From contig NZ_CP058601.1 in the NCBI RefSeq assembly GCF_013402815.2, positions 3,596,001-3,660,000 on the forward strand: a DNA stretch of 64,000 nt, read 5' to 3'. The notes beneath the pieces were generated by a model. That model saw nothing but the letters and a program-made list of their open reading frames with translations, was not told where the DNA came from and ran no database searches. Within the stretch, counting starts at the first letter, position 1. Each line of letters begins with the position of its first letter. Made by a program: the position numbers and the translations under genes. Of the stretch, positions 19,139 to 24,119 are shown in pieces. The DNA comes from Natrinema halophilum. GTDB lineage: Archaea > Halobacteriota > Halobacteria > Halobacteriales > Natrialbaceae.

Positions 19139-19250
19139 GCCGAGTCGCGACCGCACGACGGAGACATACACCGGCCGAGTCGAAGCCGCACGACGAGGAT
19201 GGACACTGGCCGAGTCGAAGCCGCACGACGAGGATGGACACCGGCCGAGA
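19139..19250. repeat. 35-bp tandem repeat, three copies plus a partial fourth
   Basis: Copies span 19139-19173, 19174-19208 and 19209-19243, then the unit restarts at 19244 for about seven bases. Copies 2 and 3 are identical except for one base; copy 1 is more diverged. The block occupies part of the 340-bp gap 18934-19273 between the stops of two convergent genes, where I see no gene. The spacerless arrangement excludes a CRISPR array. Confidence 0.85.
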
Positions 19251-19744: not shown

Positions 19745-20197
19745 AGGTGGGTGTAAGCGGCCATGACTTGAATAGCCGCCGGTCTCGGTTCTCAGCTCGG
19801 TACGGCCCTGCGATCGATTGCCGCCTGCGTTTCGTCGACCGGCAGTTGGCACTCGACTCGTGACAATATCTCGTCCCTTTTCACCGGTCGTCGTTCGTCT
19901 CCTCGATGTCCCGATTCCGGGAACTGGACGAATTCGAGCAGCTGCTCGGTGAACTGGGCGACGACGGGCCGGAGCGAAACCAATTCAGTGAATTCGGCGA
20001 AACGGCGAAACGGCGAAACCGACGGCGACGTTCGATCACAAGACGAACGAACTATTGCCACTCGCCAACGGCGTCGGCACTCGTCGTGACCACTGTATCC
20101 GCTGGCACACGGACGCGCCACTCGACGCCTCCGACCCCCGTTGAATTCTGGCAGCCAAACGGAGCGACTGGTCCGCTGGTCGACGCGATGACGCAAG
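19745..20197. other. Upstream region of trpC, no gene seen
   Basis: About 450 bp between the MGMT-like start and the trpC promoter. It has a short triplicated GGCGAAAC-type repeat at about 19997-20022 and weak open frames that are probably not genes. No Trp-rich leader peptide or attenuator hairpin was seen. Confidence 0.45.
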
Positions 20198-20198
20198 T

Positions 20199-20228
20199 CT
20201 TATGTACATATGAGTACGTCGATGTACA
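20199..20228 (+). promoter_or_regulatory. trpC promoter with two TGTACA boxes
   Basis: TGTACA occurs at 20203-20208 and again at 20223-20228, 20 bp apart, and the second ends three bases before the trpC ATG. The first lies inside the 10-bp palindrome TATGTACATA (20201-20210), which overlaps the expected TATA position about 28 nt before the start. TGTACA is the TRP-box consensus bound by the TrpY repressor of Methanothermobacter. A repressor seated here would block TBP and the start site. Confidence 0.55.
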
Positions 20229-20231
20229 ATA

Positions 20232-21035
20232 ATGAACTCCGAGACGGAGCTTGCGCCCGCGGTCAAGTCGATTCTCGCGGCCGCTCGAGAGCGGTCGGGC
20301 GGCGAGGGCGTCGTAAACGTCGACGCGCGGTCGATATCCGACGCGCTGGCGCGGGCGGAGGCTGACGGACGGGTGCCGGTAATCGCGGAGGTGAAACCGA
20401 CGAGTCCGACGGCCGACGGAACGCGGACCGACGATCCAGTCGAACTGGCCGAGGCGATGGTCGAGGGCGGTGCGGCGGCGATTTCCGTTCTCACGGAGCC
20501 GACTCACTTCGGCGGATCCCCCGAGGCACTGACCCGTATCCGCGAGGCCGTCGACGTCCCGGTTCTGCGAAAGGATTTCGTTCTGGACGAGGCTGGAATG
20601 GACGTCGTTGCGGCCGACCTGTTGTTGGTGATCGCACGGTTCGTAGACGACCTTTCGGAACTCGTCGCGGCTGCGCGCGACCGCGGGTTCCAGCCGCTGG
20701 TCGAAGTGCACGACCGGGACGAACTCGAGGACGCACTCGAAGCGGGTGCGGAGATAATCGGGGTGAACAACCGAGATCTGGCGAAGCTCGAGGTCGACCT
20801 CGAAACCTTCGAGTCGGTGGCCCCCCACGCTCCGGACGACGTGACGGTGATCGCCGAGAGCGGAATTTCGTCGCCGGTCGACGCCCGTCGGATGCGCGAA
20901 GCCGGTGCAGACGCGTTGCTGGTCGGTAGCGCCATCATGGACCACGGTGCAGACGAAAGCGATGTGACCGAGAATACGCGGCGACTCACGCGGGCAGAAA
21001 CGGCGGAATCGACGACGGAGACCGAGACGACATGA
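20232..21035 (+). CDS. trpC: Indole-3-glycerol phosphate synthase
   Basis: A 267-residue TIM-barrel enzyme. It closes the indole ring of CdRP to give indole-3-glycerol phosphate, the fourth step of tryptophan synthesis. The catalytic strand [10 protein letters not shown], the [10 protein letters not shown] segment and the phosphate-binding end GIGVNNRD / [15 protein letters not shown] are all present, though IAESGI replaces the usual form only slightly. It leads the trpCBA operon, with its ATG right behind the TGTACA boxes. Confidence 0.92.
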
Positions 21036-21060: not shown

Positions 21061-22383
21061 ATGAGTACAGGCGAACGCGAACGCGACGAGAACGGTTCCG
21101 GGCGCACGGGTACGTTCGGCGACTACGGCGGTCAGTACGTTCCGGAGGCGCTAATGCCGGCCCTGCAGGAACTCGAGGATGCGTACGAGCGATACGTCGT
21201 CGAGAACGAGGACGGGTTCATGGACGAGTTCCGCGAACGAATGCGCGACTTCGGCGGCCGCCCGACACCGCTTCAGCGCGCGGATCGGCTGAGCGAACGC
21301 TACGACCGCGAAATCTACCTCAAACGCGAGGACCTCGTCCACGGCGGCGCGCACAAATTAAACAACGCGCTCGGACAGGTCCTGCTGGCCAAGTACATGG
21401 GCAAAGAGCGGATCATCGCCGAGACTGGCGCGGGTCAACACGGCACCGCGACGGCGATGGCCGCAGCCCACCTGGACATGCCCTGCGAGATCTACATGGG
21501 TCGGACCGACGTCAACCGCCAGCGACCGAACGTTTACCGGATGCGGATGAACGGGGCCGAGGTGAACCCGGTCGACGCCGGTAGTGGAACCTTGAAGGAA
21601 GCGATCAACGAAACCATGCGCGACTGGGCGACCACCGTCGAGCGGACGCACTACGTGATCGGCTCCGTCGTCGGCCCGCACCCGTTCCCGAAGATGGTCC
21701 GGGACTTTCAGGCGGTCATCGGCGACGAAGCTCGGAGCCAGATTCTGGAAAAAGCCAGCCGACTCCCCGACAGCGTCATCGCCTGCGCCGGCGGCGGCTC
21801 GAACACGATGGGGACGTTCCACGCGTTCGTGCCCGACGAGGAGAGCGCGGAGCCACGCTCCGCGGATGACTCGAGCGGGCCCAATCCGCAAGAGCGCGTC
21901 GACCTCTACGCCGTCGAAGCCGGCGGTTCGTGCCTCGATATCGACGAAGACGCGGGCCTCGCGCCTAACTCCGCGACGCTCTCGACGGGCACGGACGGCG
22001 TCCTCCACGGCGCGATGACGAAGCTCCTTCAGAGCGGAGACGGCCAGATCGTCGAGTCACACAGCGTTAGCGCGGGGCTGGATTACGCCGGCGTCGGGCC
22101 CGAGCTCTCACACCTCGTCGAAACGGGCCGTGTTACGCCCGTGAGCGTCGACGACGAGGACGCGCTCAACGGCTTCCACCGGCTCTCCCGACTCGAGGGA
22201 ATCATCCCCGCGCTCGAATCGAGTCACGCGCTTGGATACCTCGAAGAAGCACACGAGGATCTCGGCGACCTCGTCATCGTCACCGTCTCCGGCCGGGGAG
22301 ACAAGGACCTGGAGACTGTACTCGAGGAGACGGAAAAGCGCGATCTCGAGGCCGCACCCGCAGTCGAGGTGTTCGACGGATGA
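21061..22383 (+). CDS. trpB: Tryptophan synthase beta chain
   Basis: A 440-residue PLP enzyme joining indole and serine. The PLP lysine lies in [12 protein letters not shown], followed by [13 protein letters not shown] and [10 protein letters not shown] for phosphate binding. An acidic insert (around residues 260-280, [13 protein letters not shown]) is typical of haloarchaeal copies. It starts 25 bp after trpC and overlaps trpA by four bases. Confidence 0.95.
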
Positions 22384-23300
22384 CCGCAGATTCGGCAGGT
22401 ACCGACAGCGACGTCGAAGCTGCCGTCCGCGAAAACCACCCGGCACTGATAACCTACATTACGGCGGGCGATCCGTCGCTCGAGGAGACCAAAGCGTACG
22501 TCGAGGCGCTCGACCGCGGCGGCTCGGACCTGATCGAACTCGGGTTGCCGTTCTCGGAACCGATCGCGGAAGGGCCGACGATCCAGGCGGCGATCAACCG
22601 CGCGCTCGAGGCGGGCACGACCCCCGAGGGCTTTTTCGAGTTGGTCGACGACCTCGAGACCAAGGCACCGCTCCTGGTGATGACGTATTACAACATGATC
22701 CTGCAATACGGGGCAGGCGAGGCGCCACGCGTCTCGGATAGTGACGCGGTTTCGTCGCGGAACAAACCCGACGTTCGGCCGTTCGTCGAACGCGCGGCCG
22801 AAGCGGGACTCTCGGGGATCATCGTTCCCGACCTGCCCGCCGAAGAGGCCGATCCGCTTCGCGAGGCTTGCGACGACAACGGGCTCGATCTAGTCTTCAT
22901 CATCGCGCCGACGACCGAGGGCGACCGTCTCGAGACCATCATGTCGCAGGTCTCGGGCTTTGCCTACGTCCAGGCTCGACTCGGAACGACGGGCGCGCGC
23001 GAGAACGTTTCTGGCGCGACTCACGACAGCCTCGCGCGACTGTCAGCGTACGACGTGCCCAAGGCCGTCGGTTTCGGCGTCAGCAAAGGCGACCACGCGG
23101 CCGAAATCGTCGAGGCGGGTGCCGACGGCGTGATCGTCGGCAGCGCACTCGTGGATATAATCGCCTCGAGCGACGATCCACGCGAGGCAGTCGACGAACT
23201 CGAGACCAAAGCGGCGGAGCTCAAACGCGGCGCGCTCCGTGGCTCGACCGGCGAAACTGCGGCCGGCGCGGAAGATGCACCAGAACCAGAACAGCCATAA
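22380..23300 (+). CDS. trpA: Tryptophan synthase alpha chain
   Basis: A 306-residue TIM-barrel protein that cleaves indole-3-glycerol phosphate and channels indole to TrpB. Catalytic Glu sits in [10 protein letters not shown]. The second catalytic position, Asp in bacterial enzymes (ADGPT), is Glu here (IAEGPTIQ). The phosphate site is formed by [10 protein letters not shown] and VIVGSALVD. The C-terminal 25 residues are an acidic extension. ATG overlaps the trpB stop, so they are translationally coupled. Confidence 0.93.
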
Positions 23301-23324: not shown

Positions 23325-24119
23325 ATGACCTCCGGAATTGACGCACGACTCGAACGAATCGGGACAGACGGATCGTACGTGATCGTCCCAATGGACCACG
23401 GCATCACGATGGGTGCAGTCCAGGGGCTGAAAGACATCGAATCGACCATCGACGGCGTCACCAGCGGTGGCGCGGACGCGGTCCTCACGCAGAAGGGAAT
23501 CGCGCCTCGCGTCCACGAGAACAAGAACGGGAAGGGGTACATCGTGCATCTCAACGGCTCGACGACTATCGGGCCCGACGAGAACGACAAGCGAGTGACC
23601 GGCACCGTCGAGGAGGCGATTCGGGTCGGCGCCGACGCGGTCTCGTTCCACATCAACGTCGGTTCCGATCACGAGCCAGACCAGCTCACTCAGCTCTCCG
23701 ACGTCACCGAGACGGCCGAACGGTTCGGGATGCCGGTCCTCGCAATGGCCTACGCCCGCGGCCCCGGTGTCGACCCCGAGGACCCCGAGGCGCTGGGCCA
23801 CGCGGTCCGACTCGCCGAGGAACTGGGCGCGGACGTCGTCAAAACGGGCTACAGCGGCGACGCCGAAAGCTTCCAGCACGTCGTCGAGTCGACCCGGCTC
23901 CCGGTCGTCATCGCCGGCGGCTCGAAAGGGACTGATCGCGATACGATCGAGATGGTCCGCGGCGTGATGGATGCCGGTGGCGCCGGTGTCTCGATGGGTC
24001 GTTCTATCTTCCAGCACGAAGACCCCGAGGCTATCGCGCACGCGGTCGCCGGAGTCGTCCACCACGATCTTTCGACCGACGAGGCACTCGCCGAGGCGGG
24101 GCTGGCGCTCGAGGCCTGA
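23325..24119 (+). CDS. 2-amino-3,7-dideoxy-D-threo-hept-6-ulosonate synthase (AroA')
   Basis: A 264-residue class I aldolase of the DeoC/FbaB group. It resembles archaeal MJ0400-type enzymes that start the alternative route to dehydroquinate, used in place of DAHP synthase. The Schiff-base lysine is in GADVVKTGYSGD. PMDHGITMG near the start and VIAGGSKGTD near the end hold phosphates. It follows trpA by 24 bp, so this operon couples the first step of aromatic synthesis to tryptophan production. A plain fructose-bisphosphate aldolase is the alternative but the context argues against it. Confidence 0.85.
   Translation: MTSGIDARLERIGTDGSYVIVPMDHGITMGAVQGLKDIESTIDGVTSGGADAVLTQKGIAPRVHENKNGKGYIVHLNGSTTIGPDENDKRVTGTVEEAIRVGADAVSFHINVGSDHEPDQLTQLSDVTETAERFGMPVLAMAYARGPGVDPEDPEALGHAVRLAEELGADVVKTGYSGDAESFQHVVESTRLPVVIAGGSKGTDRDTIEMVRGVMDAGGAGVSMGRSIFQHEDPEAIAHAVAGVVHHDLSTDEALAEAGLALEA

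Follow-up and report, generated by a model that had tools for sequence, protein, structure and literature searches.

Organization of the trp operons and of the trpC promoter

The window, i.e., the whole 64,000-nucleotide stretch of Natrinema halophilum DNA that was analyzed, contains the tryptophan operon trpCBA-aroA', headed by a promoter carrying three TGTACA-type boxes. Its features are given below in window coordinates, promoter offsets being counted from the trpC ATG.

20192..20197, + strand: BRE-like element CGCAAG, −40 to −35 from the ATG, kept in 34 Natrialbaceae and 21 other haloarchaea
20199..20206, + strand: TATA-like element CTTATGTA, −33 to −26, overlapped by box 1; CTTAT/CTTTT conserved
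20203..20208, unstranded: TRP-like box 1, TGTACA; TG and CA invariant in the 21 non-Natrialbaceae
20213..20218, unstranded: TRP-like box 2, the degenerate AGTACG; −18 (G) and −15 (C) without variation in 55/55 sequences
20223..20228, unstranded: TRP-like box 3, TGTACA; −8 (G) and −5 (C) without variation in 55/55 sequences
20232..21035, + strand: trpC, indole-3-glycerol phosphate synthase (NF041303, 427.9 bits, cut-off 380)
21061..22383, + strand: trpB (TIGR00263, 584.5 bits)
22380..23300, + strand: trpA (TIGR00262, 241.4 bits)
23325..24119, + strand: aroA', 2-amino-3,7-dideoxy-D-threo-hept-6-ulosonate synthase, the last gene of the operon (TIGR01949, 359.6 bits)

A sequence-only reading of this DNA had proposed trpCBA-aroA' as the target of a TrpY-like control. 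Its gene calls hold, TrpC, TrpB, TrpA and the ADH synthase all passing the NCBIfam cut-offs, and trpDFEG is added here as a second candidate target. An operon orthologous to trpCBA-aroA' is present in Halobacterium salinarum (PMC4162585). The N. halophilum genome has its other set of tryptophan genes, the trpDFEG operon, at about C1:1.31 Mb, with trpC at 3.62 Mb; the trpDFEG promoter reads CGATACGCTTAAGTGGATGTACGAATTTGGACATTGTAAGACAACTACGTACATTGGTGACCACAATG. Besides, both haloarchaeal operons are found end to end in one contiguous cluster, trpD-F-E-G-C-B-A-aroA', at L249 (f24 genome) and L252 (f16 genome); this arrangement suggests that the haloarchaeal split may derive from a gene order of that type.

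TGTACA is the TRP-box sequence of Methanothermobacter TrpY. As had been read from the sequence, two copies of it stand 20 bp apart at trpC (20203-20208 and 20223-20228), the first overlapping the TATA-like element and the second stopping three bases short of the ATG (20232). The number of boxes has to be corrected from two to three, the degenerate AGTACG having been overlooked. The GTAC cores begin at 20204, 20214 and 20224, i.e., in exact 10-bp steps, AGTACG lying exactly midway between the two TGTACA, so that all three boxes share the same helical face. The array reaches from the TATA element as far as the start codon. Upstream of trpC, the window also contains a 35-bp unit in tandem (19139-19249; 3.2 copies, 86% matches) and the 8-mer CGGCGAAA three times without mismatch (19995-20019).

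In a whole-genome pattern search, TGTACA-N14-TGTACA occurred only once in the 4,842,193-base genome, and the array including its central AGTACG found no second match with up to 3 mismatches allowed. Further targets were searched in the same genome with triple-array and two-box patterns, and only trpC rose above background: the remaining three-box matches equaled the reversed control (4 vs 4), and two-box matches numbered 3 vs 2 in the control, two-box patterns with one mismatch being at background level genome-wide. An acyl-CoA-synthetase-like gene with a two-box match was not supported as a target, and a repeated GTAC site of genus g28 was rejected, as it sits between unrelated genes. Two boxes at 10-bp pitch also occur where an AMP-ligase-like gene begins (TGTTCATCTATGTACA, L139 at about 1501, G000 C1:4246233), within chance expectation. 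The list of regulon members may be short, because such searches miss arrays as degenerate as that of trpD described below.

The possibility that the two TGTACA at trpC came together by chance draws on the background level of the one-mismatch two-box patterns just mentioned and on the enrichment of the motif across the window (10 observed vs 3.2 expected, a count reached in 0 of 100 shuffles). Against it, the three-box array is unique in the genome and conserved across the class; because of this conservation, a chance origin is already refuted, and we give it practically no weight. At least five of the eight TGTACA copies of the window that lie away from trpC fall within long ORFs, and three copies (47983, 51234 and 56048) are outside long ORFs.

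Conservation of the arrays within Halobacteria

The upstream regions of trpC were compared at 56 loci found by TrpC protein search. In 34 Natrialbaceae sequences (window counted in), the block bounded by the BRE-like GCAAG and the ATG is nearly invariant; the DNA at −130 to −60 is effectively random, with a mean of 0.06 bit per column. Three GTAC cores at 10-bp pitch were found in 68/81 Natrialbaceae genomes, nearly always at the trpC site, and the reversed control pattern gave one match. Outside this family, 21 trpC sequences (Halorubrum, Haloarcula, Halorussus, Halosimplex, Halovenus, Natronomonas and others) carry the array TGNNCA / nGNNCn / TGNNCA at an exact 10-bp pitch. The invariant positions in these promoters are −29/−28 (TG), −25/−24 (CA), −18 (G), −15 (C), −8 (G) and −5 (C), and those at −9 (T) and −4 (A) are almost invariant. 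In each box the middle two bases vary, without any change in the 10-bp spacing. As the box edges are fixed and the two central bases variable, the functional unit would be TG-NN-CA, best TGTACA, at 10-bp pitch. The boxes are thus kept at trpC in relatives from Natrialbaceae and from other families, which was the check proposed with the initial reading; TGTACA as the box sequence is valid for Natrialbaceae, the fixed part in the other families being TGNNCA.

Boxes on the same 10-bp pitch were found in the trpD promoters of all 40 non-Natrialbaceae genomes examined (nine families). The conserved ones are tGTAC (−48), TTGTACA (−38) and cGTACA (−18), 10 and 20 bp apart, with an invariant C at the intervening position (−24); an additional box near −8 is doubtful because of its overlap with GGTG. 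In these 40 genomes the DNA upstream of the array holds 0.056 bit per column. The boxes are flanked by the TATA element upstream (CTTAAG, at about −58) and by the start codon downstream, and the positions of CTTAAG and GGTG (about −13) suggest that the trpD mRNA starts with a short leader, probably of about 28 nt, that includes a ribosome-binding site; for trpC, a leaderless transcript is predicted.

The conserved block could be merely a frozen core promoter (BRE, TATA and start region) that serves no regulator. Indeed, the block includes the BRE-like CGCAAG, a TATA-like CTTAT and the start codon, and box 1 overlaps the TATA element. However, G-NN-C is invariant also in box 2 and in the inner part of box 3, neither of which belongs to these basal elements. 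Fixed edges around a varying centre (TA) are the signature of protein contacts, and the trp promoters of methanogens display the same 10-bp pitch. Moreover, trpC and trpD share the pitch but have the array at different distances from the TATA element, an observation that speaks against basal elements as the whole explanation. We regard a merely frozen core promoter as very unlikely.

A TrpY-family protein in haloarchaea

An ACT-domain search of the N. halophilum genome yielded a 167-aa protein (L063, 1471-1974, minus strand), encoded as follows.

G000 C1:2843131-2843619, minus strand: TrpY-family gene, 167 aa, predicted HTH plus ACT domain

This protein scores 239.8 bits against the NCBIfam profile TrpY_fam NF053754 (cut-off 180), its residues 2-164 aligning with positions 1-163 of 163. 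The ACT match reaches 22.2 bits, below the Pfam cut-off of 27, and the HTH IAREIGVDRRVVDSTT was recognized by inspection only. Another ACT protein, L064 (188 aa), was ruled out as TrpY on comparison with the NF053754 profile. The TrpY homologue that was to be searched for is therefore encoded in this genome, in one copy, and in all 194 Halobacteria sampled, almost always as a single copy. As trpD is likewise present in 194/194 Halobacteria, both genes are universal and the class offers no loss event with which to test their link. The trpY gene (C1:2.84 Mb) is far from, and unlinked to, both trpC (3.62 Mb) and trpD (1.31 Mb). No TGTACA was found upstream of trpY in this genome and 30 other haloarchaea.

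Arrays and TrpY in other Halobacteriota

The trp operons of 32 non-Halobacteria genomes from the same phylum, Halobacteriota, were then considered. In the first 20 of these genomes, the 110 bp preceding the leading trp gene contain 12 exact TGTACA in all, shuffles averaging 1.2. When sites matching TGTACA at 5 or more of the 6 bases were counted as boxes, 27 of the 29 box-to-box distances were multiples of 10 (shuffles 0.53, with a maximum of 5 in 1000 shuffles). Scoring of four-box chains at pitches from 7 to 13 singled out 10, with a mean of 5.5 vs 2.8-3.0 for 7-9 and 11-13. TGTACA-TCAT-TGAGCA-TTGT-TGTACA and TGTACA-ACGG-CGAACA-TAAT-TGTACA are examples of such arrays.

An array is present in 11/15 genomes whose TrpY has the recognition helix DRR[VA][VI]D and in none of the five with DRKVV (four Archaeoglobaceae, one f17), counts that are not independent because the genomes are related. 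Two f19 genomes with a full trp operon but without TrpY showed no array, and neither did several f13 and f28 genomes that carry TrpY. G260, 78% complete, had no TrpY match, yet displayed a weak array. At L199 and L275 (f17), the TrpY gene and a trpCDFEG(BA) operon are transcribed divergently, an arrangement shared with Methanothermobacter, and no TGTACA array was found; the TrpY of L199 has a recognition helix of the DRKVV type. In 5/20 non-haloarchaeal genomes (L190, L196, L197, L198 and L202), TGTACA occurs at most about 80 bp upstream of trpY, which could reflect autoregulation, a trait that haloarchaea lack.

Comparison with known regulators

The closest parallel is the TrpY/TRP-box system of Methanothermobacter thermautotrophicus (trpY-trpEGCFBAD), with which the haloarchaeal case shares TGTACA-type boxes over trp core promoters, a regulator of the TrpY family and tryptophan biosynthesis as target, binding and the effect of tryptophan being deduced on the haloarchaeal side. 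It differs in several respects. The haloarchaeal trpY is unlinked to trp, whereas in Methanothermobacter it adjoins the trp operon in divergent orientation; its promoter has no box, whereas the Methanothermobacter trpY gene carries promoter boxes that mediate repression by its own product; and the candidate haloarchaeal TrpY would address two split operons. In a published tree, the haloarchaeal TrpYs are on a different branch from MtTrpY (PMC6737238). The suggestion of a control as in methanogens is thus borne out for the TrpY-family gene and the conserved boxes, and falls short at the unlinked trpY and its box-free promoter. From sequence comparison, the haloarchaeal system would work like the TrpY/TRP-box system and belong with it by protein family, as a candidate member without the linkage or the trpY boxes of the type case.

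Thermococcus kodakarensis also has a TrpY-family homolog, TkTrpY (TK1227), which neither binds nor regulates the trp operon (PMC6737238). In this organism, Tar (TK0271) serves trp instead, via TGGACA-N8-TGTCCA. The Tar regulon of Thermococcales resembles the present case in its aromatic amino acid operons and in its similar half-sites, TGGACA/TGTCCA, but Tar is an activator of a different family and uses one inverted repeat instead of an array at 10-bp pitch.

The array could also be a real operator that is read by another regulator, e.g., the Lrp-type LrpA2/Trh1 of H. salinarum, likewise a proposed regulator of haloarchaeal aromatic amino acid genes. LrpA2/Trh1 was induced 14.9-fold in H. salinarum without aromatic amino acids, and its role in aromatic amino acid synthesis was proposed from this induction only, no site being known for this Lrp-family protein (PMC4162585). 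The lack of linkage between haloarchaeal trpY and trp, together with the behavior of TkTrpY, would also fit another regulator. Conversely, outside the class the occurrence of the array follows that of TrpY and the type of its recognition helix, and nothing was found that connects Lrp proteins with TGTACA at 10-bp pitch. The box itself is of the type of Methanothermobacter TrpY. For the latter protein, binding to its boxes and repression of the trp operon through them are established (PMC6737238). On balance, another regulator appears unlikely, and a TrpY-family protein is the preferred reader of the array.

Proposed mechanism and significance

The three trpC boxes are probably the operator of a tryptophan-responsive repressor of the TrpY family, encoded elsewhere in the same genome. 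We infer that the N. halophilum TrpY-family protein binds the boxes of both trpC and trpD, that tryptophan is its ligand and that repression is the outcome. According to this model, TrpY units would sit on one TGTACA-type box after another, at intervals of a helical turn and all on the same face of the DNA. Tryptophan bound to the ACT domain would lead TrpY to fill the array, and the filled array would keep TBP/TFB or RNA polymerase off the promoters of trpCBA-aroA' and trpDFEG, blocking either assembly or escape. When tryptophan becomes scarce, the array would empty.

TrpY could instead act on the array mainly as an activator or as a weak modulator, in line with the description of Haloferax volcanii trpCBA as not tightly regulated (PMC13147458), which also counts against the repressor model. 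However, the boxes lie on or downstream of the TATA element, where a bound protein should block, and all seven trpCBA and trpDFEG genes of H. salinarum, i.e., both operons, go up without aromatic amino acids (PMC4162585). An activating or modulating role is hence improbable compared with repression by TrpY.

Taken together, the class-wide TGTACA array at 10-bp pitch and a TrpY relative in each genome checked indicate that haloarchaea probably share the tryptophan-sensing switch of methanogens. A broader proposition, to which we assign about even chances, is that a TrpY operator of this design, a ladder of three to five TGNNCA boxes spaced by exactly one helical turn, was the original tryptophan switch in the phylum Halobacteriota. 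It would have outlasted the split of the trp genes, the relocation of trpY and the loss of trpY's boxes, a single unlinked and non-autoregulated TrpY coordinating both halves of the pathway by cooperative filling.

In agreement with the initial reading, no described TrpY-like control in haloarchaea was found in the literature searched, which covered few subscription-journal papers. In Haloferax volcanii, trp genes are standard markers and the main inducible promoter is driven by tryptophan. The regulator of tryptophan synthesis in haloarchaea had hitherto no name in the literature searched, and this analysis offers one candidate gene and two promoters. The site code, TGNNCA at 10-bp pitch, provides a readable basis for target prediction. 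Finally, these results suggest an early origin for TrpY control, which was described for a single methanogen, and its occurrence across most of the phylum.
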